From Nannobrachium achirus (taxonomy: Eukaryota > Chordata > Actinopteri > Myctophiformes > Myctophidae): a stretch of DNA of 64,000 bases. A program made the translations under genes and the position numbers. The notes below the pieces were generated by a model, which had not been told where the DNA came from, did no database searches, and saw only the letters and a program-made list of their open reading frames with translations. This document shows positions 3,336 to 63,998 of the stretch, one piece after another. Where the stretch lies: the NCBI GenBank assembly GCA_963921795.1, contig OY997661.1:34775470-34839469 (forward strand), read 5' to 3'. Position 1 is the first letter of the stretch. Each line of letters starts with the position of its first letter.

Positions 3336-3768
3336 TAGTGGTTCTCAACCTTTTTCGGCTGCGACCCCCAAAATAATCATATTTGAACTGGGGACCCCCC
3401 CACCCCCCAACCTGCGCAAGCACTTGGAATTGTAGGAGTTGGCATTACATTTAGTTTGACTCGATCAATTCCATTGTGAAAATAGCCGATCTACATGCTC
3501 ATTGCGAGGCGTTGTGAGCTTGTAGATCTGCTATTTTCACAATTTCTACCTTTAATATTTGACAATTTCACCATTGTTTGACCAGAGGTACTAAAAAGTC
3601 CCTAAATGGTCACTTCAGAAATGTGCAGATACATCTCCAGTATTCACTTATTTACTTATACTGTATGTTGGTCTGTTTACTGCAGAGTGAGAAAACAATG
3701 TTAACATTTAGCTAAACATCTGGGGACCCCCCCAAATAATTTGGGGACCCACAGGTTGAGAACCATTG
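3336..3768. mobile_element. hAT-like MITE with 8-bp TSD (family B)
   Basis: A 433-bp element flanked by perfect 8-bp duplications ATTTAAAC (3328-3335 and 3769-3776). Termini are TAGTGGTTCTCAACCT and, inverted, CAATGGTTCTCAACCT. It has no coding capacity. The palindrome core at 3473-3543 lies inside. Eight-bp TSDs and this terminus type are characteristic of hAT transposons. Confidence 0.88.
3473..3543. repeat. palindrome core, copy 1
   Basis: Two-arm hairpin with outer arms ATTGTGAAAATAGC and GCTATTTTCACAAT. The left arm reads CCGATC and the right arm mirrors CAGATC. It lies inside the family B MITE. Confidence 0.85.
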
Positions 3769-3776
3769 ATTTAAAC

Positions 3777-5266
3777 TACTAGGCTACCGTTTAAACAGTG
3801 AACCTATAGAATCCGTTCAAATACCATCTAATTTGCGATCTTAACATTGTGGTCAAGCCTAAGTAACACCCACAGCCATTGTAGAGCAAAATATACAAAT
3901 AGTTTCCAATTTGTTTGTGTGTTAACTCATCCACTACATTGGACGAGTTTGACGAGCTATAGTTATGGGTCCACTCTGCTTATGACGAATATGACGAGCT
4001 ATCAATTAGCTTTAATAACTATAAAACAAAAAAGTATGATCGCCGATTTGCCGTCCATAGCGCTCTGTGGACCCGCCCTATTCACAAAAAACGGATCTGG
4101 ATGTTCCAGAACGGAAATGGGGGGGCGGGACAACGACGCCTGTATCCTGTCTGCCGAAATGTCATCCGGTTTAATGTTGTGCAACACCAGCGTGGCGCTC
4201 CGTCGGTTTCGCTTTGAGCGATGGAAGGCTGTAGTGCTTTGTTGCTTACCCTGCCTGGATCGTATTGTGAATGCAATCGGTGAACCATCGCGCAATGGAT
4301 TCGCGCGCGCCCACGTTAAAGGTAGGCAAAATCCTGGCGGTGTGGACCCTCAGAAGGGTCTTAAAAATAGCGGTGGGTGAGTTAATAGGCTATTTTGGCG
4401 CACAACACCACTGTGCGCCGATGCATAAGTCAGGCTTGACTCGAAGGATCGGTCACAACCAGCAACAACCCTTAAAGTATGTTTAATTGAGCATCTTGCA
4501 TGGAAAAAGAGAAAATCTTTCTTTTTTTTATTTCTTACTAAACGATAACGTAACTGAATGTTTCTAGTTCTGCCTGAGGAAGTAAAGAAAACCTGAAAAA
4601 AAGTTTTATTTATTCTTTATTTTTTATTTTTTGCAACCCACAATGCCCTGGAATCCTATTGAGATGAAATGTAATAATGTTCTTTTTTTGATACGTGTTG
4701 ACAATGACTGACTGATGGTTAAAAAATATATAAGTAAAAAGAAATGAAATGTAAGCACTTTCTGAGCAGTTGGGCATGTCGAACAGACTCAGCTTATCCA
4801 GACAACATTGCCTTATCTTGAATCCATCGCGCTTAAGGTTTTTACGTTTTTAAAAGAGCTCTTAATACGCATTTATTATTTAACTCAAGACCGTACGACA
4901 ACGACCCATCTATTCTACTGAACACACTTCTCAGTTTCGTTTCAATTTTTTTTTTCCTGTTTTTAAGTTTTTTAGACTTACGTCGCTAGGCCAAAAGGTT
5001 TCGACCAGGGGTCATCAATATGTCCGTACGTGGACAAATGTGTCCGTGTCAAGTTTTAGATTTTCTTTTTTACACCCCATTATAATGTTCTTATTTTGAT
5101 CTCGATTACTGAATGTCAAGTCTCCTGTTTATCTTCAGAATATGTATGACACTGATTTACTATGACACAATGTGTGACACATCATATGAGTCTACTAGTC
5201 CTCAAATGTTTTGTTTGCAAGGATCGGACCGCATTCACGCTGAGAGTGTACAAATGGTCCATTTGG
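3777..5266. other. intergenic, one GC-rich patch
   Basis: Mostly AT-rich and unremarkable. A GC/CpG-richer patch at about 4040-4375 holds open frames on both strands (up to 177 codons, 3847-4380 on +), but I recognise no domain, and overlapping frames on both strands argue for composition rather than coding. It may be a small CpG island or decayed element. Confidence 0.3.
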
Positions 5267-5274
5267 CTCCATTT

Positions 5275-5683
5275 CAGGCACATGCACACATAGACATCAA
5301 AGGGCCCTTTTATCTGTCTGTAAAAAGTGCCCTCTCCAGACCATGAATGCAGTTTTCACTATGGTGAAAGAAATGCAAATGCCCCGTTTCCATGCCATAC
5401 CTGAAGGCAGCATTCAAGAGAATTGTATTGTCCAATCTCTCCTGAACTTGAATGCAGCATCTTATGTTGAAAGAATTGCCCTCTCTGTGTAGAAATCCAT
5501 GCCGTTACACCACATCTCCAGTATTGACTTTGATTATGCTTAGTTCAGTGTGGTATCAAGTACTGAAAATAACCGACCTCCAAGCTCACAACGCGTCGCA
5601 GCGCGGTGCGTTGTATATCTTCACCAAAAGGCCCTTTTAGAAATTTCAGCACCTGCCTCTCTAACATTCTCTTCACGTCCCTG
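5275..5683. mobile_element. hAT-like MITE with 8-bp TSD (family F, copy 1)
   Basis: 409-bp element flanked by perfect 8-bp TSD CTCCATTT (5267-5274, 5684-5691). Left terminus CAGGCACATGCAC, right terminus CACGTCCCTG. The body is shared with the copies at 27100-27536 and 51996-52448. It carries a partial palindrome core at 5562-5618. Confidence 0.88.
5562..5618. repeat. palindrome core, partial copy
   Basis: Left arm is intact (GACCTCCAAGCTCACAACGCG) but the right arm is truncated after GTGCGTTGT. Same internal location as in the two other family F elements. Confidence 0.7.
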
Positions 5684-5691
5684 CTCCATTT

Positions 5692-6648
5692 GTACACTCA
5701 GAGTTGCAGACCTTTTAGGGTCATTCAGGGTTGGCTCTTTATGCGTTTCTGGTAATAATATTGTCCACTCATTTTGTATGTCTGTGGCAAAAAAAAAGAA
5801 AAAATCACCACAAGCCAACATGACGATGAACCCCTGAGCCACCCTGATTCCCAAATGTCCTCGTGTGATTGACGCGATGCCTAATCATTTATCCTCTGTC
5901 GCACGGCGGTGGGACTTGCCCGAAAAGCGATGCAATGCGTCACTTGGTGGAGTATGAATTGAGCTTTAAAAATGGAACCGAATGTCCCTTTAAAAAAAAA
6001 AGAAGAAGAAACTCTGGGCCCATGCAGAATAATCTGGAGTGTTGAATCCGCCACTTTAAACCTAGCATTAACAAAGGCACAAATTCCCGATTGTGCTCGC
6101 AAGATTGGCTACCCGCTGTATGATTTTAAGTACAGGGCTTTAGTGGTCCACTTTTCGAGTTGATACCAATGATACTAATTAAGGCTCTGGTCAAACAGAG
6201 TCAGGGTGCTGTCTGATATTGTGCATTCTGGCTCGCTGGAAACACTCTGCTACACCAGTGGGTCTCAAAGTGTGGTCCAGGACCCTTATGGTTCCTTGGG
6301 GGTTCCAAATGACCCCTTAAAGGGTGTGTTTATTAGTTATGGGTGGTCTGTGAAATAAAAGGTTTGAGAACCACTGCGCTACATGGAATGGAACAGAGCC
6401 TTTATTAATATCATTGGTAACACCTTTGAAGGAAGTGCGAAGACACCTCCATTCAAACAGAAATGGAAAACACCCCAACTTAGAAACATCCCCATTCAGA
6501 AATACCTCCACTGAGGTTAGGTTTAGTTGACACCTCCATTTAGAATAATGGAAGTCAATCTTCTGAATGGCAATGTTTCTGAATGGAGATGTGTAACTCC
6601 CAACTTCTCTCCAATAAGGCTGCTGTGCAGTGTGCATATAGCCTATTG
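5692..6648. other. non-coding, degraded repeats
   Basis: No gene seen. Contains A-rich runs (5785-5805, 5990-6010) and a degraded '...gtggtccaggaccctt...ggttccttggggg...gagaaccactg' MITE-like piece near 6260-6385. Confidence 0.4.
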
Positions 6649-6755: not shown

Positions 6756-7003
6756 ATATCGTCGTTGTCGGGTGAAAATCTTGTATGTCCAAAACCGTTC
6801 GTTTTGCATTTATCATTTTAAAAATGTGAAAACAGACGATCTACAAGCACACAACGCCTCACACCGCGAGGCGTTATGTGCTTGTAGATCTACTGTTTTC
6901 ACTATTTTTGTGCGACGGCTTTGTTTGATGAAGCAGGGCTTGACTTTGTGAAAGAACGTACACATTTTGAGATACGGGTTTTCCACCCAACAATGACGAT
7001 ATA
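6756..7003. mobile_element. nested TIR element (family V)
   Basis: About 248 bp with inverted termini ATATCGTCGTTGTCGGGTG and its imperfect complement CACCCAACAATGACGATAT. The same family recurs near 40.57-40.73, 48.77-48.96 and 49.09-49.57 kb. The palindrome core (6826-6902) is central. Confidence 0.75.
6826..6902. repeat. palindrome core, copy 2
   Basis: Arms GTGAAAACAGACGATCTAC and GTAGATCTACTGTTTTCAC. This is the AAAACAG variant: both arms carry C/G where other copies carry T/A. GCACACA pairs with TATGTGC. Confidence 0.85.
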
Positions 7004-7394: not shown

Positions 7395-7471
7395 GTGAAA
7401 ATAGCAGATCTACAAGCTCACATCGGGTCGTGATATGACGCGGTGTGAGCTTGTGGATCAGATATTTTCAC
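7395..7471. repeat. palindrome core, copy 3
   Basis: Outer arms GTGAAAATAG and, imperfectly, ATATTTTCAC. The centre has diverged (CATCGGGTCG...GCGGTG). Confidence 0.8.
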
Positions 7472-8230: not shown

Positions 8231-8301
8231 GTGAAAATAGCCGATCTACAAGCTCACCGCTTCGTACCCGCATTGTGTACTTGTAAATCAGCTATTTTAA
8301 C
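8231..8301. repeat. palindrome core, copy 4
   Basis: Left arm GTGAAAATAGCCGATCTACAA is intact; the right arm is decayed (TTGTAAATCAGCTATTTTAAC). Confidence 0.75.
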
Positions 8302-12235: not shown

Positions 12236-12240
12236 AGAGA

Positions 12241-13452
12241 CTATTGATTATTCCTGCATATCCAATAGCCTATACAGAATGTTATTCTTTAACCCTATTG
12301 GAACAGATTTTTGGTGTAATAGTAAGGCTCAGAATCCCAGTACAGGTCAATTCCATCGATCCGTGGAATAGTATAGCCCAGAGCAGTATAATCAGAGAGT
12401 GGTGTCACCGCGGGGTCAGAAACAGCGCTGGTCACGTGGTTCATTGTCACTTTACACCTCATAGACTTCAATGCATTTTGTAAACTTCCGGTTCGCCGTT
12501 TGTCACTATACGCCAATAGATGTGTGCGCAGAAGACCTGGCCCCATGAAGTGAACGGGAGTGACGCAACTCTCCATTCTAGGGCTCTGGTATAGCCTAGC
12601 CAGGATGGTGACGCTTGCCTTCGTGAGCTCGGTTGCGTTCGGGTGAGCGCCGCCGTCCCTTTAAGAGAGTTGACGGCAGCTATTTGGAGTAACAGTCAGT
12701 GAGGGAGAGACTGGATGCTCCCACCATCCTTACGCCGGCTTTCTATCGAGGCGTGGACCCAGACAGACAGCTCTCTCTCCTCTCTTAGCTATAGTCTTCT
12801 AGCATAATAATCCACAGCTCTCACTCTAAAACGCAACGCCAGTCTAGCTGGAGAGGATAGAGAAAACATGACTCCTCCAACTGCTGTCTCATAGCGGCCG
12901 GCTTTTATTTGATCTATATCTCTTCATCAATTATTAAGTATTTTGCCACTCCAGAGGCCGGCGCCGCTTTATTTATTATTATTTCATCGCATCATCATCA
13001 TGGATGATGATGTGTTGGCGGCGGCGGGGGGGAATTGTAACGGTTTCCCGTTGAGAAGAAGAAGATAGCCGTGGCCGATCATTTCTGCACCATCATCATC
13101 AGACAGTGAGTGGACATTCAGTAAAAAAAAAAAAAAATCTCCATCCCTTTTAGGGCTGTGGTACTTTTATTGTCATGCCTGCTGCGGTCTGAGACAGAGA
13201 TAGAGAGAGAGTCAGAGAGACAGAGAGAAGGATCCGAGCCGGTGTGTGTGTGCGTGCGTTGGGTGTGTGTATGCCTGTGCACGCGCACACACGCGCACCG
13301 CGCGTAAATGCACCAAGACTTTCTGTTAATTCTCCTTTTTTTTGCATGAGGAGGAGGAGGAAGGGGGGAATTTAGCCGGGATCGTAGTAGTTTCAAGGAA
13401 GGTGGTGGTGGTGGTGGTTGGGGGTCCGCGGACCACCGCGATCATCATCATC
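12241..13452 (+). promoter_or_regulatory. rap2 5' flank and 5' UTR
   Basis: A CpG-richer, mostly repeat-free stretch directly before the rap2 ATG. It includes purine tracts, (CAT)n and an in-frame open stretch just upstream of the ATG (from 13342) with no family support. The transcription start is not determinable here, and no clean TATA box was seen near the ATG. Confidence 0.5.
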
Positions 13453-13766
13453 ATGCGCGAGTACAAGGTGGTGGTCCTCGGCAGCGGCGGCGTGGGCAAG
13501 TCGGCGCTCACCGTGCAGTTCGTCACGGGCACCTTCATCGAGAAGTACGACCCGACCATCGAGGACTTCTACCGCAAGGAGATCGAGGTGGACTCGTCGC
13601 CCTCCGTGCTGGAGATCCTGGACACGGCGGGCACCGAGCAGTTCGCCTCCATGCGCGACCTGTACATCCGCAACGGCCAGGGCTTCATCCTGGTGTACAG
13701 CCTGGTCAACCAGCAGAGCTTCCAGGACATCAAGCCCATGCGGGACCAGATCATCAGAGTCAAGAG
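13453..13766 (+). CDS. rap2a: Rap2 small GTPase, coding exon 1 (residues 1-105)
   Basis: Ras-family GTPase that cycles between GDP and GTP at membranes and signals through Rap2-specific effectors such as TNIK/MAP4K kinases (family knowledge). The exon encodes [10 protein letters not shown], the P-loop GSGGVGKS (10-17), switch [10 protein letters not shown] (32-40) with Phe39, which separates Rap2 from Rap1, and DTAGTEQF (57-64) with the Rap-typical Thr61. It ends ...QIIRVK plus AG of Arg105 at a GTGAGG donor; exon 2 at 48306 restores AGG. Total product 183 aa, the usual Rap2 length. The ATG at 13453 is chosen because MREYK is the invariant Rap2 N-terminus. IIRVKR matches RAP2A/B rather than RAP2C, and the two-exon structure matches RAP2A, whereas mammalian RAP2B is intronless. 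The exact fish paralogue is uncertain. Confidence 0.96.
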
Positions 13767-13798
13767 GTGAGGGAGTGAGTGAGTGAGTGAGTGGAGAG

Positions 13799-18305: not shown

Positions 18306-18726
18306 ACATTTATAGCTGTTGCTGGTGCCACCATTGACTTACGTTATGTTTTGATGAGCCCCGCAAGCTTCGTGCGTGTGCACGTGCGTGTCCAGAGAAG
18401 ATTGAGGAGGTACTCCATTTGTTTACAAACGCTCGCGAAACTCGCGGTAAAAAAATCGCGGTAAATTCGCGGTAAAGTGTCGCCGTGAAAACAATCAGCT
18501 CTCTGCCTCCATGGGGCTGTTTTTACCTCATTCTCAGATAAAGCCGTTCTTATGTTTCAAAGTAGAATCTAAAGCCATGTAAAATCCTTCCGTGTGGGGA
18601 GAGACAGGGGGCTTCCTGCCCTGGCTGGGTGACGTAATGGATTCAGGGCATGCAAAGGGAAGCTGCGGTCTCGAAAAGTTAACTATTTGTTGACTCGTCC
18701 CTCGACGATATAACTTCCTGTGGCAG

Positions 18727-19915
18727 GGTGACATCTAGTGGCCATAACTCGTCCCTGAACGCGTTTGGCTCCCCAAGTGTTAATGGACAGATCCCCTCAG
18801 AATCCTTTCAGCAAATCACCAGAATTGTACCCAGCCAGGAGCAAGGAGACACAGATGAACCAATATATTACGGTCATCAAAGGTTTACCAAGACTTTAAA
18901 TCAACCAGAAGAAGTAAAGACACATCTGCTGACTCACATTTGTAAACAGTGTGACAAGAGTTTCAGTCGGTTAAATAACCTGAAGACTCACCAGCGTACA
19001 CACACTGGAGAAAAACCTTTTCACTGTAAAGAGTGTGACAAGAGTTTCAGTCAGTTAGGTGACATGAAGAGTCACCAGCGTGTCCACTCAGGAGAAAAAC
19101 CCTTTCACTGTAAAGAGTGTGACAAGAGTTTCAGTCAGTTATGTAACCTGAAGAGTCACCAGCGTGTCCACTCAGGAGAAAAACCCTTTCACTGTAAAGA
19201 GTGTGACAAGAGTTTCAGTCAGTTATGTAACCTGAAGAGTCACCAGCGTGTCCACTCAGGAGAAAAACCCTTTCACTGTAAAGAGTGTGACAAGAGTTTC
19301 AATCAGTTAGTTCACCTGAAGGGTCACCAACGTATACACACAGGAGAAAAACCGTTTCACTGTAAAGAGTGTGACAAGAGTTTCAGTCAGTTGGATAACC
19401 TGAAGAGTCACCAGCGTATCCACACTGGAGAGAAACATTTCATCTGCAAAGAGTGTGACAAGAGTTTTAGTCGGTCAAATGAACTGAAGATTCACCAGCG
19501 TATCCACACAGGAGAAAAACCTTTTCACTGTGAAGAGTGTGACAAGAGTTTCAGTCAGTTAGGTGACCTGAATCGTCACCAGCGTATCCACACAGGAGAA
19601 AAATCTTTCCACTGTAAAGAGTGTGACAAGAGTTTCAGTCAGGTAGGTGATATGAAGATTCACCAGCGTATCCACACTGGAGAAAAACCTTTCATCTGTA
19701 AAAAGTGTGACAAGAGTTTTAGACGGTTAAATGAACTGAAAGTTCACCAGCGTATCCACACTGGAGATATCCACACTGGAGAAAAACCCTTTTGCTGTAA
19801 ACAGTGTGGCAAGAGTTTCAGTCAGTTAGGTCACCTGAAGAGTCACCAGCTTATACACTTTGAAGAATTGGCCAAGCAAAGCTTGGCCAATGGCAAGATT
19901 TGTGGAGGCACATAA
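18727..19915 (+). CDS. C2H2 zinc-finger protein, terminal coding exon (11 fingers)
   Basis: Likely a nuclear DNA-binding protein. About 75 linker residues precede 11 tandem Cys2-His2 fingers of the type C-x2-C-DKSF...H-x3-H, mostly joined by TGEKPF linkers, ending TAA at 19913. Fingers 3 and 4 are exact 84-bp copies (19100-19183, 19184-19267). The last linker is expanded by a GDIHTGEKP duplication. No ATG occurs in frame upstream of the fingers (the frame opens after a stop at 18680; the open run at 18728 begins GTG), and an acceptor-like TTCCTGTGGCAG ends at 18726, so an upstream exon is probably needed. No KRAB, BTB or SCAN domain is visible. It lies in the rap2 intron on the same strand. 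The reading frame is intact, so it is likely functional or recently so. Fingers are of a lineage-expanded type, so orthology is not assignable. Confidence 0.82.
19100..19267 (+). repeat. exact 84-bp tandem duplication of a zinc finger
   Basis: Two identical 84-bp finger units in a row with no base difference, indicating very recent unequal exchange or ongoing homogenisation. Confidence 0.95.
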
Positions 19916-27099: not shown

Positions 27100-27536
27100 C
27101 AGGCACGTGCACACATAGACATCAAAGGGGGCTTGAGCCCCTGCCCTTTTACCCGTCTGTAAAAAGTGCCCTCTCCAGACCATGAATGCAGTTTTTACTA
27201 TGGTGAAAGAAATGCAAATGCCCTCTTCCCATGCCATACCTGAAGTCAGCATTCAAGAGAATTGCCTAAGTCCAAGTCCAAACTCTCCTGAACTTGAATG
27301 CAGCATCTTATGTTGAAAGAATTGCCCTCACTGTCCAGAAATCCACACCACATCTCCAGCATTGCCTCTTTTATGCTTAGTTTAGTGTGTACCGAAATTA
27401 GCTGACCTCCAAGCTCACAACGCGTTTTGCTGCGACGCGTTGTGAGCTTGGAGGTCTCCTATATTCAATATTTTCACCACAAGGCCATTTATGAAATTTC
27501 AGCCCCTGCCTCTCTAACATTCTCTGCACGTCCCTG
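27100..27536. mobile_element. hAT-like MITE with 8-bp TSD (family F, copy 2)
   Basis: 437 bp, perfect TSD CTCTGAAG (27092-27099, 27537-27544), termini CAGGCACGTGCAC and CACGTCCCTG. It is inserted in another degraded element (26.94-27.09 / 27.55 kb). The palindrome core at 27393-27464 is internal. Confidence 0.9.
27393..27464. repeat. palindrome core, copy 6
   Basis: Perfect 22-bp arms (27404-27425 and 27435-27456) running GACCTCCAAGCTCACAACGC on the left. Both arms carry the CC/GG variant where most copies have TA, so the change is mirrored. Confidence 0.88.
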
Positions 27537-27761: not shown

Positions 27762-28153
27762 TAGGGCTGTCACGATTATGACATTTTACATGACGATTAA
27801 CTTTCTCTCAAATAATTGCGATTAACGGTTTAATTGTATTTTTGTCGTTGACAATTACATTTCTGTTTGGCTTTTAGGCTTTGAAGTTACACATGGTAGA
27901 TATGACACATAAGCTAAATATACAAAGAAATTACTTGACATATTTGACAACTTTATACTTAAAAAAAACATTGATAGTGGAAATAGCCGATCTACAAGCT
28001 CACAACGCATCGCGATGCGACGTGTTGTGCGCTTGTGGATCTGCTATTTCCACTATTTTTGACATGGAAACGATTATGACGATTACGAAAAATAATCACG
28101 ATTATGTTAAATAATCACGATTAGACGATTATGTAATAATTGTGACAGCCCTA
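27762..28153. mobile_element. hAT-like MITE with 8-bp TSD (TAGGGCTGTCACG family)
   Basis: 392 bp, perfect TSD AGGCTGAC (27754-27761, 28154-28161). Termini TAGGGCTGTCACGATTAT and its inverted relative ATAATTGTGACAGCCCTA. The palindrome core (27974-28056) lies inside, although the termini are unrelated to families B and F. Confidence 0.9.
27974..28056. repeat. palindrome core, copy 7
   Basis: 83 bp with outer arms ATAGTGGAAATAGC and GCTATTTCCACTAT: the GG/CC variant is mirrored in both arms. The centre is ATCGCGATGCGA. Confidence 0.9.
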
Positions 28154-28805: not shown

Positions 28806-29126
28806 TCAAATGTTGTATGTTCACAAAACATGTGGTGATGATCGTTGCAGCGGTTTGAGAGACCAGCCCTGGACAATCACACACAACCACAGACCAGACG
28901 GCTCACCTCCTATAGCAGGGCTTCTCTAAGTTGAAGTTGAAGAAGTCCAGGAGTGCCTCAATACTTTGATAATGTTAGGAATGTATCAATGTCACTTCAG
29001 TTTAACCACTTAGACCAGGGGTATAGACCAGTATTATGGCACACACTCATGTGTCAGCAGGGGTGTCGCACCAAATTCTGGGCCCTGGGTACAAGGATTC
29101 ACTCACACATTTTGTGCTTTAACTTT

Positions 29127-29186
29127 TGAAAATTAGCAGATATACAAGCTCACAGCGCTGCAAGCTTGTAGATCTGCTATTTTTTG
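29127..29186. repeat. palindrome core, copy 8
   Basis: GAAAATTAGCAGATATACAAGC paired with GCTTGTAGATCTGCTATTTTTT; a very short centre. Confidence 0.75.
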
Positions 29187-29264
29187 AAAAATCGTGAAAA
29201 TGTGTTTAAGTCTTTGAATATTTCAAATCCTTCTAAGGTTTCTTTGAAAAACCTGTGTTTCTAT

Positions 29265-29420
29265 GTCAGTGGTGCTCAAACTCTTTCATGTTAAAGACCC
29301 CAAAAATGATATGTATTTGGCCACGGACCCCCATCTCAAAATACTTAGTTCCAGGGACCCCTCAGAAGCAATTTTTTAGTTACAAATGTTCACTTAAAAA
29401 TACATTATTTGCACACATTT
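29265..29420. repeat. MITE fragment (GACCCC.AAAATGATATG type)
   Basis: 'ggtgctcaaactctttcatgttaaagacccc' then 'atgatatgtatttggcca'; inverted relative at 42630-42755. Confidence 0.55.
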
Positions 29421-29431
29421 TCACGACTTTT

Positions 29432-29478
29432 CAAAAATAGCAGATCTACAGCTGTGAGCTTGTATATCTTCTCTTTTT
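29432..29478. repeat. palindrome core, copy 9
   Basis: Shortened: AAAAATAGCAGATCTACAGC / GTGAGCTTGTATATCTTCTC. Confidence 0.65.
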
Positions 29479-29499
29479 CAATAGCTAAAGTATAAAATA

Positions 29500-30221
29500 A
29501 TTAAGGCCCCTCCACCTTGGGCCCTAGTAACTCAGTCATTAATTCACAGTATATAGCAGGGGTTTTCAAAGTGGGTGACGGGGAACCCTGGGGTGCCACG
29601 ACGGCAGTCCAGGGGTGCAGCAAGATAATTTGATAATATTTGAAATCTATTTGGACATTTAAAAACTTATTTAGTATCATTTTAAACTTGAAGTACAAAG
29701 TTATTTTCAGTCAGTTCTAACTAAAATTATCTTGCTTTCCTCGCAACATTATTGCTAAAATATGCTATGAATATAAGGTGCTGGGAGTGAAAATTAGGTA
29801 CATAATAATGTAGGGGTGCCTCGGATGAAAAAAATATTTATAGGGGTGCCCCGAGCAAAAAAAGTTTGGGAACCACTGGCCTGGTATACATTATATGGCC
29901 CAAGCGTGTGCCACCAAAACTGAGTAGTGCCGGAAAGATGGAAAGAATAAAGTCGGACATGTACTATAGTCTGGTTCCCCACTAGGGTAACCACTATAAT
30001 TACTTGTGACAGCAGAGCGCACAAGTAGAGTGATGAGTGCTGTCTTTGTGGGTATGTGGCTGACCATACAAAGGCTGGAGCAGCCAATGAGAGAGCTGCG
30101 TTCTCGGTGACATCACCAACGAACAAGTGTTGTCACATCACCCACATACAGACAGAGCTCATCACCCTACCTGTGTGCTCATGTAGGCCATATTTGGCTA
30201 TGAGTGCAGTCTTGTCTAGTT
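29500..30221. other. non-coding, degraded elements
   Basis: A MITE-like unit with ends near 29560 ('aggggttttcaaagtgggtg') and 29880 ('aaaaagtttgggaaccactgg') and a promoter-like repeat block near 30.05-30.13 kb. No gene. Confidence 0.45.
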
Positions 30222-32579: not shown

Positions 32580-32807
32580 CGCCACGGCTCACACAGTCAC
32601 GTTCAAATTAGCTTATTTGGCTACTTTCACCTACAGGGGATCGCCGGCTTCTCTTTATTGTGCTGCTCGCGAGGTCTCTCGTCTTTTCTCGCTCTGTCGT
32701 GTCTCGCTGTTCAGTTATTGTTCTCTTTTTATGCTATGCTATTCTAATGCACTGATACGTAGGCCTAATATACACTGTATTATGAATTGGAGATGCCAAA
32801 GTCAGTG
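32580..32807 (-). promoter_or_regulatory. 5' flank of the ACSBG2-like gene
   Basis: Repeat-poor stretch between the ATG and the TATA-like box, containing a second A/T element (CATAAAAAG on minus, near 32724-32733). Presumed 5' UTR and core promoter. Confidence 0.4.
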
Positions 32808-33921: not shown

Positions 33922-34337
33922 CAGTGGTTCTCAACCTGTGGACCCCAGGGGGGGTCCCCAGATTGTTTTGTGGGGTCCCCAGATGATTAGCTTAATGTGA
34001 AACATTGTTTTCTCACTCAACAGTAAACAAACCAACATACAGTATAAGTGTACATAGAGGGTATCTGCACATTTCTAAAGTGACACATTAAGGACTAGTA
34101 AGACCCTTTTAATACCTATAAAATAAATAAAATAACATTGGCCATATTGTCAAATATTAGAGGCAGAAATTGTGAAAACAGCCGAACGCCTCGCAACGCG
34201 AGGCTTTGTGAGCATGTAGATCTGCTATTTTTACAATAGAACTGTGTTATACAAAATGTAACGCCTCAACTCTTAGTGCTTGCAGTTAAAATATGATTAT
34301 TTTGGGGGTCGCGGCCTGAAAAGGTTGAGAACCAATG
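33922..34337. mobile_element. hAT-like MITE (family B, copy 2, inverted)
   Basis: Termini CAGTGGTTCTCAACCT and AGGTTGAGAACCAATG. The interior is shared with 3336-3768 and it includes a palindrome core. No clear TSD; the left flank 'gcagtggtgtaaa' is itself a family IV terminus, suggesting nesting. Confidence 0.75.
34169..34237. repeat. palindrome core, copy 10
   Basis: Outer arms ATTGTGAAAACAGCCGA and TCTGCTATTTTTACAAT; the left arm has lost its 'gatctacatgctcac' portion. Confidence 0.75.
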
Positions 34338-40569: not shown

Positions 40570-40735
40570 ATTGTCGTTGTCGGGTGGAAACCTCGTACCA
40601 GTATCTCCAAGTTTCAAATGTGTACATTCTTTCGCAAAGCAAAGCAAGGCCGTCGCACAAAACTAGTGAAAACAGCCGATCGACAAGCACACAACGCCTC
40701 GCGGTGCGAGGTTTTCACCCGACAACGACGATATC
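40570..40735. mobile_element. family V element, internally deleted
   Basis: Termini ATATTGTCGTTGTCGGGTGG and TTCACCCGACAACGACGATAT. Contains the palindrome core at 40666, whose right arm is deleted. Confidence 0.65.
40666..40718. repeat. palindrome core, deletion copy
   Basis: GTGAAAACAGCCGATCGAC through GCCTCGCGGTGCGAGG, then straight to TTTTCAC: the right arm lacks the CGTTGTGTGCTTGTAGATC part. Confidence 0.75.
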
Positions 40736-41596: not shown

Positions 41597-41670
41597 TGAA
41601 AATAGCAGATCTCAAGCTCACAACGCGTCACAATGTTGTGCGTTGTGCGCTTGTGGATCGGCTATTTTCA
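41597..41670. repeat. palindrome core, copy 13
   Basis: TGAAAATAGCAGATCTCAAGC / GCGCTTGTGGATCGGCTATTTTCA. Orientation reversed: CAGATC on the left, GATCGG on the right. Confidence 0.82.
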
Positions 41671-42175: not shown

Positions 42176-42475
42176 GCAACAACCCACTGGTGGCGTTTCG
42201 TGCGAGAATCGGCACTCTATAGCATACAGTATGAGCGCAGTGCACTTAAAGGGATTCCAATGCATCAAATGTTTAAATCGCTAAAGATATACAGCCGCGT
42301 CGCCCCTATCATGCACTATAAGCATGTCTTTTGACAGATAAAGAAAAAGCTTTTTCCCTCAAACGCATCGCTGCTGGCGATTCCCATCCACAGGGGCGTC
42401 ACAAGGGGGGGAAAAGTGGGACTGAGTTACTAGGGCCCAAGGTGGAAGGACCTTAATTATCTGATACTTTAGTTA

Positions 42476-42563
42476 TTGAAAAATAGCAAGCTCACAGTAC
42501 AATACAATACAACACAGCGCGGCACCGAGTGCCGCGCTGCGAGCTTGTAGATCTGCTATTTTT
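42476..42563. repeat. palindrome core, copy 14
   Basis: TTGAAAAATAGCAAGCTCACAG / CTGCGAGCTTGTAG...CTATTTTTGAA. The left arm lacks 'agatctac'; the centre is expanded with an ACAATAC repeat. Confidence 0.75.
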
Positions 42564-42830
42564 GAAAAGTCGTGAAATGTGTGCAAATCTTTGACTACTG
42601 TAGCATATATGTATTTTGTAAGCCAACATTTGTGTCTCAAATTTTGCTTCCGGGGGTCACTGGAACTAAATATTTTGACCCGGGGGTCCGTGGCCAAATA
42701 CATATCATTTTGGGGGTCCTTCACATGAAAATGTTTGAGCGCCACTGACATAGAAACATAGGTTTTTAAAAAAAAAACCATAGAAGGATTTGAACTTTGC
42801 AAATTTTCTTGCGCAAATGTTCACGATTCT

Positions 42831-42900
42831 TCAAAAATAGCAGATCTACAAGCTCGCAGCCGCGCTGTGAGCTTGTATGTCTGCTACACGTATTTTTCAA
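42831..42900. repeat. palindrome core, copy 15
   Basis: CAAAAATAGCAGATCTACAAGC / GTGAGCTTGTATGTCTGC then an insertion CACGTA before TTTTTCAA. Confidence 0.75.
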
Positions 42901-43414
42901 TAGTTAAAAGCACAAAATGTGTGAGTGTATCCTTGTACCCATGGCCCAGAATTTGGTGTGACAACCCTGCCCATCCAATCCGCTCTCGGAGGCAGCGTCG
43001 ATACGAGGAGGCTGAAGGGAGAGTAATGGAACACACGGCTGTTGAATAATTGAATAAAGCTAATGTGCCGCTGCTTTCAGAGACAACGGGGGACATCGTG
43101 AATGCTGGGCACAAGCATACAAGTCTGAAGAAGAAAAAAAACACACACACTGTTTTGTGCTAGAGCAGGGGTCTTCAACATTTTCAGGCCAAGGGCCCCA
43201 TAGTTGAGAGAGAGATGAAGCAGGGACCCCCACAACCTTTTCATAGATTCCATATAGTTTCATTGTTTGACAGCACAGTCGTCAGTGTATTTTGGATTCA
43301 TGTCAATTTGTGTTTTCAGATATTTAACCACTTGAACCGTCAATACTTAATAAACGTAACCTTTCACTCTGTACTTAGTCTGCTCTTTGTCTCTCTCTAC
43401 ACCAAAGCTCTTTG

Positions 43415-43489
43415 CCGAAAATAGGCGATCTAAGAGCCTATTGTAGATCGCCTGCGCGCTGCGAGGCGTTGTGAGCTTGTAGATCTGTC
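43415..43489. repeat. palindrome core, rearranged copy
   Basis: AAAATAGGCGATCTAAGAGC, then TTGTAGATCGCC, then GCGAGGCGTTGTGAGCTTGTAG; one extra partial arm. Confidence 0.65.
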
Positions 43490-43871
43490 AGCGGCCCGGC
43501 GCCACCAATCAAAAACGATTGCCGGCGCCAATCAAGCATGGTCTAAGCCTGGGCCCCCCATGCCCAGAATACGGACACTAGGGTTCAAGGGAACAAGACA
43601 TGCTCTATAAAGAGTTTTAATTTCAAAGAGGATTGGTGGCCATTTAATTTGGGACTTCTCGCGTGAGATTCTCCATAAGATACTATCAAGTTAGGACAAC
43701 AACAAGACCAAAGGTAACGGAATGATTCCATGGAACACATGTATCAGGCTAATAGGCCGTGCTATCAGTCATTGTTAAGTGCATGGTGTGGCTGTTCTAT
43801 TGATCGGCTGCTGCATTGCTAGAGAGAGACAAAGTGCTGACTCATGGAGAAAAAAGAAAAACATCTGGCAT

Positions 43872-48305: not shown

Positions 48306-48543
48306 GTACCAGCAGGTGCCGGTGGTGCTGGTGGGCAACAAGGTGGACCTGGAGGGCGAGCGGGAGGTGTCGCCCTCGGAGGGCCAGGCGCTGGCCGAGG
48401 CATGGGGCTGCCCCTTCCTGGAGACCTCGGCCAAGAGCAAGAGCATGGTGGACGAGCTGTTCACCGAGATGGTGCGGCAGATGGACTTCATCCCGCTGCC
48501 CGACCGCAGCCGGGTCTGCTGCCCCGCCTGCAGCCTGCAATAG
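48306..48543 (+). CDS. rap2a: Rap2 small GTPase, coding exon 2 (residues 105-183)
   Basis: Continues exon 1 in phase (AG|G, then TAC CAG CAG). Carries the guanine-specificity motifs NKVD (116-119) and ETSAK (144-148) and the C-terminus CCPACSLQ. By family knowledge Cys180 of the terminal CSLQ box is prenylated and the preceding Cys176/Cys177 are palmitoylation candidates, anchoring Rap2 to membranes. Human RAP2A ends CCSACNIQ, so the arrangement is conserved while the tail residues differ. TAG at 48541-48543. The acceptor is preceded by an unusually long CT/C-rich tract. The 3' UTR holds a (GA)n and a hAT insertion. Confidence 0.96.
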
Positions 48544-48723: not shown

Positions 48724-48875
48724 ATGTCGGCCTTCGTTCCATTTTGGGGGCTGGGCGGGCCAACACAGTAAATCGTCACTGTCGGGCAGAAACCTTGTAT
48801 CTCCAAGTTTCAAATTTATACATTTTTTCGCAAAGCAAAGCCCTGCTTCATCATATAAGGCCGTTGCACAAAAGT

Positions 48876-48954
48876 AGTGAAAACAGCAGATCTACAAGCA
48901 CACAACGCCTCGCAGTGCGAGGCGTTGTGTGCTTGTAGATCGGCTGTTTTCACT
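48876..48954. repeat. palindrome core, best-preserved copy
   Basis: 79 bp: 39-nt arms around a single G at 48915. The arms begin AGTGAAAACAGC and end ACAACGCCTCGCA; the only arm-to-arm mismatch is A versus C at arm position 13. Confidence 0.95.
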
Positions 48955-49089
48955 AGTTTAAATCATTTTTTAAATGATAAATACAAAACAAACGGTTTTG
49001 GACATACTGTACAATGTTTCCAGGGCCTCTCCAACTCTTTTTCCCGGGCTGAATCAGGGGCCCAGCACGTCCTTGCTAATCACTATTGA

Positions 49090-49570
49090 ATATCGTTATT
49101 GTCAGGGTGGAAACCATGTATGTCCAAAACCGTCCGTTTGTGTTTATCATTTTAAAAATGGTTTAAACTAGTGAAAATAGCCGATCTACATTGTGTGTTT
49201 GTTGATCTGCTATTTTCACTAGTTTTGTATGTCAGTCTTGTATGATGAAACTAGCCTGGCGTTGCTCATACTAATTCCTCACTGCGTATCGGATATTAGT
49301 CTGGACTTGTAAGCAGAACTTTCATTTCCAAGGGGTGGGTTAAAAAAAAAGGCTCTGGACACGATTGGTTAGACCAGACCAATGCTGCTGGGCCCTGATT
49401 GGTTCCCCCAAATTTTGGGGGAGAGGAAATGGATTCACAATTGAGCTGGGTCAGACCCATATTCGCCAAGGGCAGTTTTTTTTTTGCCCAGGCGGATTGG
49501 TCTGGTTCCAGGCTAACCCTAACCAATTTGAAACTTGGAGATGCGTGGTTTCCGCCCGACAGTGACGATA
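49090..49570. mobile_element. family V element, split
   Basis: Starts ATATCGTTATTGTCAGGGTGG and ends CCGCCCGACAGTGACGATAT. Inside are a palindrome core (49167-49223) and an unrelated 49255-49515 segment whose ends ('agcctggcg' and 'ccaggcta') are complementary, i.e. another insertion. Confidence 0.65.
49167..49223. repeat. palindrome core, minimal copy
   Basis: ACTAGTGAAAATAGCCGATC / GATCTGCTATTTTCACTAGT flank a 16-nt centre; the inner GAGCTTG/CAAGCTC part is absent. Confidence 0.82.
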
Positions 49571-51995: not shown

Positions 51996-52448
51996 CAGGC
52001 ACGTGCACACATAGACATCAAAGGGGGCTTGAGCCCCTGCCCTTTTATCTGTCTGTAAAAAAACTGCCCTTTCCAAACCATAAATGCAATTTTTACTATG
52101 GTGAAAGAAATGCAAATGCCCTCTTTACATGCCATACCTGAAGGTGGCATTCAATAGAATTGCCTTGTCAAAACGCTCCTGAACTTGAATGCAGCATCTT
52201 ATGTTGAAAGAATTGCCCTCTCTGTGTAGAAATCCATGCCATTACGCCACATCTCCAGTATTCACTAGGTAATGCAGTTCAGTGTGGTTTCACGCACCGA
52301 AAATAGCCGAACTCCAAGCTCACAACGCGTCGCAGTGCAACGCATTGTGAGCTTGGAGGTCTGCTATTTTCAGTGCTTCCACCACCAAAAGGCCCTTTTG
52401 GAAATTCCAGCCCCTCCATGCCTCTCTAACATTCTCTGCACGTCCCTG
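51996..52448. mobile_element. hAT-like MITE (family F, copy 3)
   Basis: 453 bp, flanks ATCCCAGG (51988-51995) and ATCGCAGG (52449-52456). Termini CAGGCACGTGCAC and GCACGTCCCTG. The palindrome core is internal at the same place as in copies 1 and 2. Confidence 0.88.
52294..52376. repeat. palindrome core, copy 17
   Basis: GCACCGAAAATAGCCGAAC / GGTCTGCTATTTTCAGTGC; inner arms CTCCAAGCTCACAACGCG / CGCATTGTGAGCTTGGAG, again the mirrored CC/GG variant. Confidence 0.85.
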
Positions 52449-53883: not shown

Positions 53884-53955
53884 GACTCTGTGGCGCAACG
53901 GTAGCGCGTCTGACTCCAGATCAGAAGGTTGCGTGTTCAAATCACGTCAGGGTCA
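53884..53955 (+). tRNA. tRNA-Trp (anticodon CCA)
   Basis: 72 nt. The acceptor stem GACTCTG/CAGGGTC pairs fully with one G-U; A box TGGCGCAACGG; anticodon stem TCTGA/TCAGA with loop CTCCAGA (CCA); B box GTGTTCAAATC. Nearly identical to the vertebrate tRNA-Trp gene apart from the acceptor stem. No encoded CCA. The expected oligo-T terminator is weak: only CTTTA follows within 15 bp. Confidence 0.95.
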
Positions 53956-55950: not shown

Positions 55951-56375
55951 CACTTGGTTCTCAACCTTTTCAGGCCGTGACCCCCAAAATAATCATATTT
56001 TAACTGGGGGCCCCCGACCCTGAAGAGTTGAGGAAGTATATTTTGTATAACACGGTTCTATTGTGAAAATAGCAGATCTACATGCTCACAACGCCTCGCA
56101 ACGCGAGGAGTTGTGAGCATGTAGATCGGCTATTTTCACAATTTCTGGCTTTAATATTTGACAATGTTTAATTTGTCATTTTAGAGGTATTAAAAAGTCC
56201 TTAATTTTTCACTTTCGAAATGTGCAGATACCCTCTATACACTTAAACTTTATGTTGATTTGTTTACTGTTGAGAGAGAAAACAATGTTGCACATTAAGT
56301 TAATCATCTGGGGACCCCCCCAAAATAATGTGAGGACCCCCCTGGGGGTCCCGACCCACAGGTTGAGAACCACTG
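55951..56375. mobile_element. hAT-like MITE (family B, copy 3)
   Basis: Left TTGGTTCTCAACCTTTTC, right AGGTTGAGAACCACTG, interior shared with 3336-3768; no clear TSD. Confidence 0.7.
56060..56142. repeat. palindrome core, copy 18
   Basis: 83 bp, outer arms ATTGTGAAAATAGCAGATC / GATCGGCTATTTTCACAAT; inner arms ACATGCTCACAACGC / GTTGTGAGCATGT: the CATG variant is mirrored. Confidence 0.92.
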
Positions 56376-56895: not shown

Positions 56896-56958
56896 ACAAA
56901 AATAGCCGATCTACAAAAACTCAAAACACGTTCCGAGCTGGTAGATCTGCCATTTTTT
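56896..56958. repeat. palindrome core, copy 19
   Basis: ACAAAAATAGCCGATCTAC / GTAGATCTGCCATTTTTTG; the centre has decayed. Confidence 0.7.
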
Positions 56959-58509: not shown

Positions 58510-58572
58510 AAAATAGCAGATCTACAAGCTCATAGCCCGGCACCGCGCTATGAGCTTGTAGATCTTCCATTT
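58510..58572. repeat. palindrome core, copy 20
   Basis: AAAATAGCAGATCTACAAGC then TCATAGC / GCTATGA then GCTTGTAGATCTTCCATTT; the CATAG/CTATG variant is mirrored. Confidence 0.8.
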
Positions 58573-58584
58573 ACATATGATGCC

Positions 58585-58640
58585 TAATAGCCGATCTACA
58601 AGCTCATAGCCCAGCAAGGCACTATGAGCTTAGTATTTTC
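58585..58640. repeat. palindrome core, copy 21
   Basis: TAATAGCCGATCTACAAGC then TCATAGC / CACTATGAGCTTAGTATTTTC; the CATAG/CTATG variant again, adjacent to copy 20. Confidence 0.75.
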
Positions 58641-58645
58641 ATGGC

Positions 58646-60421: not shown

Positions 60422-61530
60422 CAGAAGAAGCGGCGTCGCTTTGTTTTGGTTCCCTGTTTCCCCAATCCCTATTTAAATGCCAGAGAAGTGTAGTCTTTCT
60501 TGCCAGTCGCTGCGAGTTGGACTAAAAGATGGATATACCAAACTTTTCAAAAAATAAGCAAGACTACGCAGCATTAAGGGTTTTATTGGGTAGGTACTAA
60601 AATTATGTCCTTGAGCGCGGGGGAATTGTTTTGGGTTAAAACTGATTCCGGTTTGGCATTTCCTGCCAAAGTGTAGTCTGCTTTGACTACAAAATGACAC
60701 CATCCTCTCCCGACCGGTGATGTTACGAGGTTTTCAATGTAATGGGTCCCGGCCGGGACCCACAGGTGGTCATTCAAATGGGTCCCAGAAAAGTTTTATG
60801 AGTCCTCAATATAAAGTTTACGCGCGCAAAATGGCGTCGGACGTCGGTGGAATCAAAACATTGACGTTTCTATCGCCTGTTTAAGACTTTCTACGTGGAT
60901 TTTATTTGTGTTAACGTAGGGTAAAGTAGGATGCTTTCACCCATGAACAATGGTGGTGTCTGTGGAATTTCTTTTTTTTTTCTTTTACCGCGACGCGGTC
61001 AATTATTTTAACATGGACTCCAATGGAGGCGCATCCCCAGGACCCCAGGACCATGACATGAATGAGTCCCTGGGTGACTTGAATGAGTTTTTGATGCGGG
61101 ATGCGCACGTAATGACATCACTGCCGACTAGGGATGGTGCCCGAAAACCGGGTCCATTACAAACCCGCTTCTGAATTTATCGAGACCCGAGTATCAATAA
61201 GCTTTTGGCTTGTCGAGCCTGTTACCAGGTAAGCATCATAACGTCACGTAATGGGCCGCTATAGGGGGCCGGGACGGGAGGTAGGCTACATTGCGTCATT
61301 GATAGTTGTGTGCTTTGCAAGTGCTTGCCGTGGAACAATGGTTGAATGCGTGAAACACTAAAATGTTTGCGATTAATTAATCACAGAGCCTGTAATTAAT
61401 TAGATTAAAATATTTAATCGCATCCCAGCCCTAGTTACATTTAATAAAAGACAAGGGGAGAGCTAAATGCAACTAGAAATACTGTTCCTTCGAAACAGTG
61501 TGGGCTCGGTTCCAACCCAACAAATAGGAT
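60422..61530. other. non-coding, hAT debris
   Basis: Contains pieces such as TAGGGATGGTGCCCGAAAAC (61129) and GCATCCCAGCCCTAG (61421). No gene supported. Confidence 0.45.
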
Positions 61531-61534
61531 ACTT

Positions 61535-62103
61535 TAAGGTACTGTAAGGTACAGTACCTTACAGTATTGTACTGTACCTTACTATACTGTACTGCACCTT
61601 ACTGTACTGTACTGTACTGTACTGTACTGTAACTTACTGTACTTTACTGTACTCTACTGTACTGTACTTTACTGTATTCTACTGTAACTTACTGTACTTT
61701 ACTGTACTCTACTGTACCTTACTGTACTGTACTCTACTGTACCTTACTGTACTGTACTGTACCTTACTGTACTATACTATACTGTACTCTACTGTACCGT
61801 ACTGTACCTTACTGTACTGTACTCTACTGTACCTTACTATACTGTACTTTACTGTACTCTACTGTACTTTACTGTACTCCACTGTACCTTACTGTACTTT
61901 ATTCTACTTTACTGTACTTTATTGTACTTTACTGTACTCTACTGTACCTTACTGTACTGTATTGTACTTTACTGTACCTTACTGTACTGTACTCTACTGT
62001 ACCTTTCTGTACTGTACCTTTCTGTACCTTACTGTACTTTACTGTACTCTACTGAACCTTACTGTACTTTTACTGTACTCTACTGAACCTTACTGTACTG
62101 TAC
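61535..62103. repeat. TACTG-based minisatellite
   Basis: About 570 bp of imperfect TACTGTAC(C/T)T and TACTGTACTC units, built on a 5-bp TACTG theme with higher-order 15-35 bp periods. Confidence 0.95.
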
Positions 62104-63299
62104 ATATTATATGTGTTCTAGATCTACATTTTTGATTCTGTGTTTGGGAACCAGCAACTGTCAAATGGACTCCAACTGTAGTGGAGTATATTGAGTGCAT
62201 ATACTGTAGGCTAACAATCCCAGATCACATATGTCCTCCACTATGTCTATAACCAAGGCGTTCTTCTATGTGGCCACTCCAGACTGAGGAGTGGAGCATG
62301 GCTTTTATTGTGTTTGTGGATCTGACTTGGAAATGCATTGGTTTTGATATCTCCCTGACAACCAACAACAACCACTAATATGGCTGACTGTCCCTGCGGG
62401 CTCTAGGATATGGCTATGGGATTTACATCCCATCGCCCGGACTTGATTCTTGATCACAGCTGTGTAATCAGTAGAGTGGAGAGGGACATTTATTTATAGT
62501 TTTAACTATAACTATAGTTTTATACATCACACAGCTTAGACATTTGGATCAAATCAGAGAGCAGACCTGTGTGAACGCAATGATATAGATAGCATATCTG
62601 AAGTGTGAACACTGCAGCCACAGCGCCTTAACATAAACATGGGTCTATTATCCTTCTCTCCACTCTGGGGACCCATTGGAAATGCATTGGGTGCTTAAAG
62701 TTAAACATTTTTATTTTTTTATATTTATACTACAAAACATTTCAAAACCAAAAATACAAGCACACTTGTCCTCAGTAAGCTGAACACATAAAAATTTGAA
62801 TGGTGTTGAAAGGTGTAAGCGTTTAAGAGATGAAGCGCGCCAAAGTATTGAGGAGATACTGACTAGTATAGTATAGTATATAAATAATGAAGATAACATA
62901 CGTGTGCTCGCCTTCCAGGCGAGCCCACAATAATGGGTTATATGCAGCACGGCCACGGTTACATGCTCGGGAGGGAACACTTCGACAATGCGGAGGCACT
63001 AATTGTATTGTACATAGTGCATCACATAAGACCCACCCAAGTGCAATAACTTTGAATGTCTGCGACGAGTTGAAACAACGCGTGCGTCACTGCGGTCCAG
63101 CGTCGGCTGTTGCAGCAGCGCGACAACCTTTCTCTTCCACCCAAAGTATGTGGTGCTTGAAAATATGAATGATTCCATTGATAATAATCCGTTTGGGATT
63201 AAAAGCTCGAAATTGGTCGCTAGCATCAGTAGAGAGAGAAGTTGCCACGGGTCGGACTCACTGCTGTGTGTGTGAACATGTCCGCTGTGTTGCCCTCAG
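62104..63299. other. non-coding remainder of mrpl39 intron 2
   Basis: No recognised repeat or gene; a small run of AGTATAGTATAGTATA lies near 62866. Confidence 0.45.
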
Positions 63300-63439
63300 A
63301 CCTGACGGAGTACCACGTGACCACCTCGGCTCTGGCGCTGGTGGACGGAGAGCCCTGGCCCCTTCACCAGCCCCTCACCCACTCCTGCACCCTGTCCCTG
63401 CTCACCTTCAAGGACACTGACCCAATGCTGGTCAACCAG
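63300..63439 (+). CDS. mrpl39: mitochondrial ribosomal protein L39, coding exon 3
   Basis: 140 bp encoding (H)LTEYHVTTSALALVDGEPW, PLHQPLTHSCTLSLLTFKDT and DPMLVNQ, ending in phase 0 at a GTACTG donor. Aligns with MRPL39 'ALVDGQPWDMYKPLTKSC' and 'FLTFKDCDP'. Cumulative coding length is 130 codons of the roughly 335 usual, so the rest lies beyond the window. Confidence 0.93.
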
Positions 63440-63933
63440 GTACTGATCATGGTTTAGTTCTGACTTCGATTTGACTTTTTTTTTACTTTACTTTACTTTG
63501 AATTTTTGAATATCAAATGTCCATATTTCAAAATATTACAATATTACACGAGACCACTCAAAACAAGGATTTATAATAAAAATGTCAACATTCTGAAGTC
63601 AGAGTTGCTTGAAGTCCAGTGGGAAGTTTCCAAAGTCAGTTATGATTTGGGGTGCTATGGGATCTCTGCAATAATCTTTCACACAATATTCGAATTTTTT
63701 CGAGAAGGATCTGTATACTAGTGGTGGCTCGGTATCAACATTTTGTTATCGCGGTTACCGTCCTCCCATTTACCGCCGGTATTGCGGTAATTACCGCACC
63801 CCCGTATCTATTAATTAAGGTTCGGCGATAAGACAAAATATTCCTATCATCTGCCCAAAATTCGTCTCTCCACGGTCCTATAAGCCCGACTGCTCGAGTT
63901 CCCCGTACAGCACAGTGGGTCTGGCTTTTGAAA
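63440..63933. other. start of mrpl39 intron 3, with hAT debris
   Basis: Includes a 'gtggctcggtatcaacattttgttatcgcggttaccg' element start at about 63722. Confidence 0.45.
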
Positions 63934-63998
63934 GTAGCAGATCTACAAGCTCACAACGCGTCACGTTCGCAACGCGTTCTGAGCTTGTAGATCTTTGC
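63934..63998. repeat. palindrome core, copy 22 (window edge)
   Basis: GTAGCAGATCTACAAGCTCAC then AACGCG / CAACGCGTTCTGAGCTTGTAGATC then TTTGC; the window ends here. Confidence 0.82.

Follow-up and report, generated by a model that had tools for sequence, protein, structure and literature searches.

What is a near-perfect palindrome that recurs about every 1.7-1.8 kb along a stretch of fish DNA, and how did it become so common? The question is raised by 64,000 nucleotides of the myctophid Nannobrachium achirus (assembly GCA_963921795.1, contig OY997661.1, positions 34,775,470 to 34,839,469, forward strand), hereafter the window. A sequence-only reading of the window had noted a hairpin about every 1.7 kb, as our spacing bears out, and had likened it to a pre-microRNA (pre-miRNA) or a foldback mobile element. 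Here, we show that this hairpin lies at a family-characteristic place within elements of three target-site classes. We favor the explanation, with a probability of roughly 0.6, that it is a passenger module lacking its own ends and common to unrelated families of non-autonomous DNA transposon, or miniature inverted-repeat transposable elements (MITEs).

A palindromic unit found throughout the genome

The shared unit is AAAATAGC-N-GATCTACAAGCTCACAACGC. A canonical two-arm copy, from AAAATAGC to GCTATTTT, is 71 bp long, or 77-79 bp with its family-specific outer pairs; the conserved unit is a near-perfect palindrome of 71-79 bp. Across 198 arms, each position from AAAATAGC up to base 16 of GATCTACAAGCTCACA carries 0.6-1.9 bits of information, and the four positions that follow carry 0.7-0.9 bits. 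It is 0.4 bits or less starting one base outside AAAATAGC, and past this edge the flanks are unrelated. The earlier description needs one correction, as the outer arm differs among families: GTG precedes AAAATAGC in 57 of 305 loosely matched arms.

The reference copy folds as had been described:

48876..48954: reference hairpin, 79 bp, near-perfect palindrome, in a TA-class stretch (folding, sequence)

It forms a single stem with a 3-nt loop, at -68.1 kcal/mol as RNA and -47.1 kcal/mol as DNA (z about -15.6; 0 of 200 shuffles equally good). So stable a fold is what a pre-miRNA-like or other structured RNA under base-pairing selection would show, and about 21 loci lie in a presumed Rap2-like intron, where they would be co-transcribed. 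However, a 3-nt loop is also the commonest among two-arm copies (44/83), and a scan of the window against Rfam at gathering scores returned a tRNA only, with no curated RNA family matching the hairpin. We return to this explanation with the arm comparisons below.

The hairpin is far more frequent than chance would allow. The core 20-mer GATCTACAAGCTCACAACGC has 41 window matches with up to 3 mismatches (0.00 expected, 100 shuffles). Searched with a profile derived from the two arms of 32 full-length copies, the window yields 36 loci at 10 bits, from 3479 to 63994, and a Markov control covering the whole 284-kb sample yields no locus; at 6 bits the window has 41 loci and the control one. The total agrees with the roughly 38 copies first reported. 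The division of those copies into 27 two-arm and 11 partial ones was somewhat generous to the former: we count 20 two-arm copies by pattern, 20 by profile, and 23 by either, the remainder being single or weak-armed.

The 284-kb sample comprises the window and 22 10-kb pieces of the same genome, whose positions were set at round numbers, not drawn at random: 12 Mb for C1-C20, and 25 Mb for C22 and C24. The 22 pieces hold 120 loci (1 to 20 per piece, mean 5.45), which extrapolates to 0.90 ± 0.16 million loci (standard error) in 1.66 Gb. Since every piece has at least one locus, the window is typical of the genome. The arms alone make up 2.3% of the 220 kb sampled outside the window. The exact 20-mer occurs 27,213 + 27,148 = 54,361 times genome-wide, and its reversed control not once. 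Among 166 arm-profile loci at 8 bits, 42 are full-length two-arm copies, 31 shortened and 2 lengthened two-arm copies, 82 single-armed, and 9 more complex. A 19-mer search gave no match in viral contigs and a single match in prokaryote genomes, which we estimate to be about the chance level.

The hairpin lies within MITEs of three target-site classes

Searching by paired termini, we recovered 32 elements of 134-660 bp in five motif classes. They have the terminal inverted repeats (TIRs) and class-specific target-site duplications (TSDs) of MITEs, and 28 of the 32 contain the hairpin or recognizable parts of it. The complete hairpin-bearing elements span three target-site classes: hAT-like (8 bp), TTAA, and TA/TT. 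The hairpin is present in 7 of 10 hAT-a elements, whose TSDs agree at 62 of 80 letters (39.0 when shuffled); six of the ten TSDs are perfect, five of these in hairpin-bearing elements. All four hAT-b elements carry it (24/32 TSD letters vs 13.6 shuffled; two perfect TSDs), as do all four hAT-d elements (28/32 vs 21.3; one perfect TSD). Both TTAA-class elements carry it and have identical flanks, although TTAA is part of the search motif. In the TA class it is found in 11 of 12 elements, five with TA/TA and three with TT/TT flanks. Thus, the earlier statement that no named element type explains the hairpin is not supported, since its carriers include MITEs of the hAT-like, TTAA, and TA classes.

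The hairpins and elements of the window are as follows, with the strand where one was assigned:

3336..3768 (+): hAT-a MITE (hAT-like), 433 bp, perfect 8-bp TSD ATTTAAAC, hairpin 3479-3537 (two termini)
6759..6999 (+): TA-class MITE, 241 bp, TSD TA/TA, hairpin 6829-6899 (two termini)
7398..7468: two-arm hairpin (pattern)
8234..8298: two-arm hairpin (pattern)
27395..27465: two-arm hairpin in hAT-like element, terminus CAGGGACGTGCAGAG at 27536 (-) (pattern, flank cluster)
27980..28050: two-arm hairpin in a repeat (pattern, genome count)
29058..29570 (+): hAT-like element, hAT-b terminus CAGGGGTGTCGCACC at 29058, right end approximate (terminus motif); two inverted hairpins 29130-29183 and 29434-29477 (pattern)
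33922..34337 (+): hAT-a MITE, 416 bp, TSD decayed (4/8), partial hairpin 34175-34231 (two termini)
40571..40731 (+): TA-class MITE, 161 bp, TSD TA/TA, half hairpin 40669-40701 (two termini, profile)
41599..41668: two-arm hairpin (pattern)
42391..42969: hAT-b-type stretch, terminus CAGGGGCGTCAC at 42391, inverse terminus near 42942 (terminus motifs); hairpins 42531-42562 and 42834-42890 (pattern, profile)
43166..43494: hAT-d-type stretch, terminus CAGGGGTCTTCAAC at 43166, TTAACCACTTGAACC at 43324, hairpin 43418-43494 (terminus motifs)
48773..49568 (+): TA-class stretch, inverted termini TCGTCACTGTCGGG at both ends, hairpins 48880-48950 and 49174-49216 (terminus motifs)
52300..52370: two-arm hairpin in hAT-like element, terminus CAGGGACGTGCAGAG at 52448 (-) (pattern, terminus motif)
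55952..56375 (-): hAT-a MITE, 424 bp, TSD decayed (2/8), intact hairpin 56066-56136 (two termini)
56899..56956: two-arm hairpin, flank clusters 11/12 (pattern, flank cluster)
58510..58614: hairpin plus a further arm (pattern, profile)
63935..63994: last two-arm hairpin, at the window edge (core match, profile)

Clustering of 200-bp flanks gave 18 clusters, which we group by judgement into about eight flank families; in 65 of 82 two-arm copies, one flank or both fall into a cluster. The ends of family 1, CAGGGGCGTCAC..., are hAT-like, with duplications such as TATATACG, and its long form holds a pair of hairpins, the consensus of one being exactly the reverse complement of that of the other. 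Family 3 is hAT-like, about 400-440 bp long, CAGTGGTTCTCAACC...GGTTGAGAACCACTG, with 8-bp duplications. Family 4 is hAT-like, CAGGGGTCTTCAA...TTGAAGACCCCTG, and contains a TTAA-CCACTTGAACC...GGTTCAAGTGG-TTAA stretch around the hairpin. The terminus of family 7 is CAGGGACGTGCAGAG. In family 2 the termini are TCGTCGYTGTCGGGYRGAAACC, flanked by TA/TA in 5 of 12 cases and by TT/TT in 3 of 12. Two of the three TT cases (L019 and L027; L numbers denote pieces outside the window) lie in similar surroundings and may go back to a single insertion, later copied.

Could all these families descend from one ancestral MITE, with flanks that have diverged past recognition? Several TTAA-type flanks do look alike by eye. 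However, the three TSD classes have unrelated termini, and the flanks within three measured families are still 81-94% identical to their own consensus. We therefore consider common descent from a single family the least credible of the explanations weighed here. The outcome named beforehand as refuting the earlier reading, a hairpin confined to the interior of one family at a fixed position, does not occur.

The relation of hairpins to termini can also be tested from the ends inward. For six terminus motifs, an arm occurs within 320 bp inward of 84 of 124 termini and outward of 20 of 124, with 15.5% of random 320-bp stretches holding one. The test counts both ends of one element, and the enrichment is partly built in because the motifs were derived from hairpin-bearing families. 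It locates the hairpin within the tested families and does not imply its presence in all MITEs.

The hairpin edge lacks a dominant direct repeat

The main rival to a passenger module is a self-mobile palindromic mini-MITE of 71-79 bp, similar to Made1, that inserted into the founder of each family and was then co-amplified. Several features are as this rival predicts. The hairpin has a sharp edge within unrelated flanks, and its size and shape are like those of Made1, which has 80 bp consisting of two 37-bp TIRs and 6 bp, according to the accessible text of PMC1784062. TA precedes 35 of the 57 GTG-bearing arms, as a TA target would give, but this context is confounded with family 2, as TT is with family 3. 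A scan of direct repeats at small offsets from the edges of 82 copies found, at its best setting, a 3-nt repeat in 16% of copies vs 4% in shuffles. By eye, this excess is mostly from family 1, where the repeat is TGA or TCA.

The same scan revealed no dominant direct repeat that could serve as a TSD of the hairpin itself. The stronger signal at the edge is inverted: the palindrome runs on for about 4-6 pairs past the common edge (z 4.9-6.6 at positions 1-4 and 6, not at position 5), in letters that are specific to each family. Nor does a recurring empty site appear among the 100 listed collapsed hAT-a copies described below. A self-mobile hairpin is thus an explanation we regard as possible and rather unlikely. 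As for the earlier suggestion of a foldback mobile element, the hairpin is found inside mobile elements, with no good sign of independent movement.

The hairpin-less relatives examined read as deletions

If the hairpin were a late insertion, related elements should include recurring empty sites. Genome-wide, 177 hAT-a copies have 0-30 nt between two flank anchors, and the 100 of these that were listed have 90 distinct junctions, with no recurring empty site. The commonest junction (7 copies) falls at the 5-nt repeat AATAG. An exact test of the 90 junctions identified 19 with microhomology, 6 blunt, and 65 with further changed letters. Only three of the 100 listed copies, judged by reading, lack all hairpin letters, and all three are different. 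A joined-flank search of the sample gave at least 56 spanning matches, many of them self-matches. Its readable hairpin-less relatives retain scraps of the hairpin and are deletion derivatives, and no exact hairpin-less empty site was seen among the matches listed.

We considered one candidate ancestor, L023:270, a hairpin-less hAT-a element with a perfect TSD. Its flanks are missing too, so that it reads as a larger deletion. L015:98 retains hairpin scraps, and window 55229 is unrelated to the hAT-a family. In two families, hairpin columns are deleted in 27% (9 of 10 elements used) and 24% (11 of 12) of cases, vs 8% and 10% elsewhere in the elements, a comparison that omits window 55229 and L013:8078, a TA-class element without a hairpin. 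In the related elements examined, absence of the hairpin is thus explained by deletion. The hairpin is probably as old as the hAT-a family, and its losses are many separate deletions.

Arms change together mainly between families and singly within them

In the 32-copy alignment, 16 of 34 pairs have changed on both sides (70 cells). Covariation is 0.233 vs 0.127 when shuffled, exceeding all of 500 shuffles and all slid registers, with the shuffles leaving the relatedness of copies in place. Pairwise comparison of six family consensuses gives 62 matched two-arm changes, 62 one-arm changes, and 5 others; 36 of the 62 one-arm changes involve the two-copy family 7, and families 2 and 3 differ by three matched changes and no one-arm change. 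In contrast, 23 copies compared with their own consensus show 1 matched, 60 one-arm, and 4 other changes. On these counts, pairing seems to be restored at the founding of a new family and not in resident copies. We suggest that arm-to-arm copying, via template switching at a foldback, would explain both the matched founders and the family-specific stem extension.

Arm covariation would also be expected of a structured RNA. However, the matched changes separate families, and they include double transversions with few G-U intermediates; resident copies, moreover, lose their pairing. Taken with the short loop and the Rfam result, this makes a role at the RNA level very improbable, and we find no evidence here for a pre-miRNA.

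One core with two kinds of ends

The clearest sign of recombined ends and interiors comes from two loci. L010:1020-1495 has TTAA ends on both sides, and L011:6982-7544 has hAT-like termini. When the L010 core is read in opposite orientation, 436 bp of it can be aligned with L011 at 81% identity, including both hairpins and the interior; the alignment ends at distances of 21 and 5 bp beyond the two hairpins. As judged from sequence, this pair would fit an exchange of ends. A third locus, L009:6900-6970, carries one hairpin bordered left and right by the outer flank type, the arrangement expected if an element had lost its interior when its two hairpins recombined.

A passenger module would have multiplied whenever a hAT-like, TTAA-, or TA-class MITE was moved by the transposase of its class. 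It would have passed between MITE families most likely by template switching or recombination of hairpin-bearing copies, and in lineages still undergoing copying the foldback mechanism would maintain the match between the arms. Resident copies would then lose the palindrome through one-arm substitutions and deletion.

The hairpin might also be more than a passenger. Selection could favor it because it raises MITE amplification in cis, a proposal that is compatible with a passenger module and that we hold to be doubtful. In the Angel model, hairpin extrusion during replication reportedly drives MITE bursts, and in the Stowaway model an internal sequence is said to enhance transposition. An arm lies near most termini of the tested classes, and founders are near-perfect palindromes even though residents decay fast. 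For the shared region of coral CMITEs, a role in transposition has likewise been proposed by its describers (accessible text of PMC2872659). However, hitchhiking predicts the same abundance, and the terminus enrichment has the built-in component noted above. Only tentatively do we suggest a fuller version, in which the hairpin acts in cis to promote amplification and moves as a module among unrelated DNA transposons, so that adopting families out-multiplied others, while foldback copying re-perfects the palindrome of founders and swaps adjacent ends.

Several observations weigh against the passenger module as we describe it. For 17 of 82 two-arm hairpins, neither flank clusters with that of another copy in the 284-kb sample. 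One of these, at window 27980, sits in a further repeat, as shown by the 194 genomic occurrences of a 23-mer from its right flank. TSD support in the TA class is weak (19/24 letters vs 15.6 shuffled), and the class names are our assumption from terminal motifs and TSD length, not from transposases. The 3-nt direct repeat at the hairpin edge does exceed its shuffles. Direct support for end exchange is the one core with two kinds of ends, which nesting followed by loss of the outer ends could mimic. Matched founder arms could come from selection on active elements. Finally, the consensus comparisons are 15 in number and non-independent; because some consensuses rest on two copies, the count within families leans low.

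Sample composition

Family groupings and orientations for the flank-identity and arm-change counts were chosen by hand. Loci L001-L008 were chosen because they bear arms, and are excluded from the copy-number estimate, the profile counts, the terminus test, and the 166-locus length classes. Of these, L001, L003, L005, and L007 are included in the edge, two-arm pattern, flank-cluster, direct-repeat, arm-change, and complete-element analyses. L008 overlaps L007 and is excluded throughout. L006 (99% like L005) and L002 (95% like L001 over 1.1 kb) are excluded from most counts and retained in the 198-arm information profile and the two-arm pattern count. L021:9928, whose right flank is cut, is absent from the edge direct-repeat scan and the flank-pair count. 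L005 and L006, about 2 kb apart on C1, are stretches of about 2 kb that are 99% identical and contain the same hairpin; they represent a recent local tandem duplication.

Other features of the window

A small GTPase gene, which we take to be Rap2-like, and several other features share the window with the hairpins:

13451-13770 and about 48310-48523 (+): apparent exons of the Rap2-like GTPase, the first matching Pfam Ras, presumably joined
18683-19912 (+): C2H2 zinc-finger open reading frame (ORF), about 11 fingers
30459-32585 (-): ACSBG2-like acyl-CoA synthetase, uninterrupted 709-codon ORF, apparently intronless
53884-53955 (+): tRNA-Trp (CCA), Rfam 68.3 bits
61548-62135: degenerate TACTG-type tandem repeat, with long open frames rich in YCTLLYCT

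The presumed intron of the GTPase gene is about 34.5 kb long and holds about 21 hairpin loci. The zinc-finger and ACSBG2-like ORFs lie inside it as well. The latter is 64-71% identical to the fish proteins listed and is perhaps a retrocopy.

Comparison with known systems

MITE interiors are usually regarded as family-specific leftovers. The 32 host elements resemble MITEs of hAT, TTAA (piggyBac-like), and Tc/mariner-like type in their TIRs, in their class-type TSDs or the remains of these, and in their length. They differ in sharing an internal hairpin that is not expected across unrelated classes: one palindrome is common to several transposon classes. If the hairpin has passed between families, it would demonstrate modular exchange across superfamilies and provide a natural experiment for asking if bursts of MITEs are driven by hairpins. 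Matched changes in founders and one-arm decay in residents are a testable signature of foldback copying. The window also illustrates how one long intron can hold about twenty RNA hairpins. Within the titles and abstract openings of the open-access literature, we found no palindromic module common to hAT-like, TTAA, and TA-class elements; the open-access literature likewise gave no match to the arm letters and nothing pertinent on template switching.

The nearest precedents are the coral CMITEs, Angel, and Made1. Angel was reportedly described in 1999 by Izsvak and others. These zebrafish DNA elements have long inverted repeats, form stem-loops, and reach high copy number, as the accessible text of PMC3636048 has it. 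Our hairpin is likewise from a teleost, abundant, and stem-loop-forming. Compared by description only, the two differ in that the stem of Angel is made by its own inverted repeats, whereas the present palindrome is an internal segment that many families share.

Made1 is an 80-bp palindromic MITE with its own ends that derives from Hsmar1, became hsa-mir-548, and has 7,850 annotated copies in human, according to the accessible part of PMC1784062. It is similar to our hairpin in size and in being a near-perfect palindrome, and it shows a route from such hairpins to miRNAs. Unlike Made1, the hairpin described here has no ends or TSD of its own that we could find.

A further likeness is with the CMITE families of Acropora, which have different TIRs and a common conserved internal region of 75 bases, its origin unknown, within elements of about 100 bp with TTAA TSDs (accessible text of PMC2872659). 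Different TIR families with a common conserved internal region are also what we find in N. achirus. However, CMITEs have TTAA TSDs, whereas the hosts here also include hAT-like elements with 8-bp TSDs and TA/TT elements. Neither "hairpin" nor "palindrome" appears as a word in the accessible text on CMITEs (PMC2872659), whereas the piece shared here is a hairpin, in an estimated 0.9 million copies.

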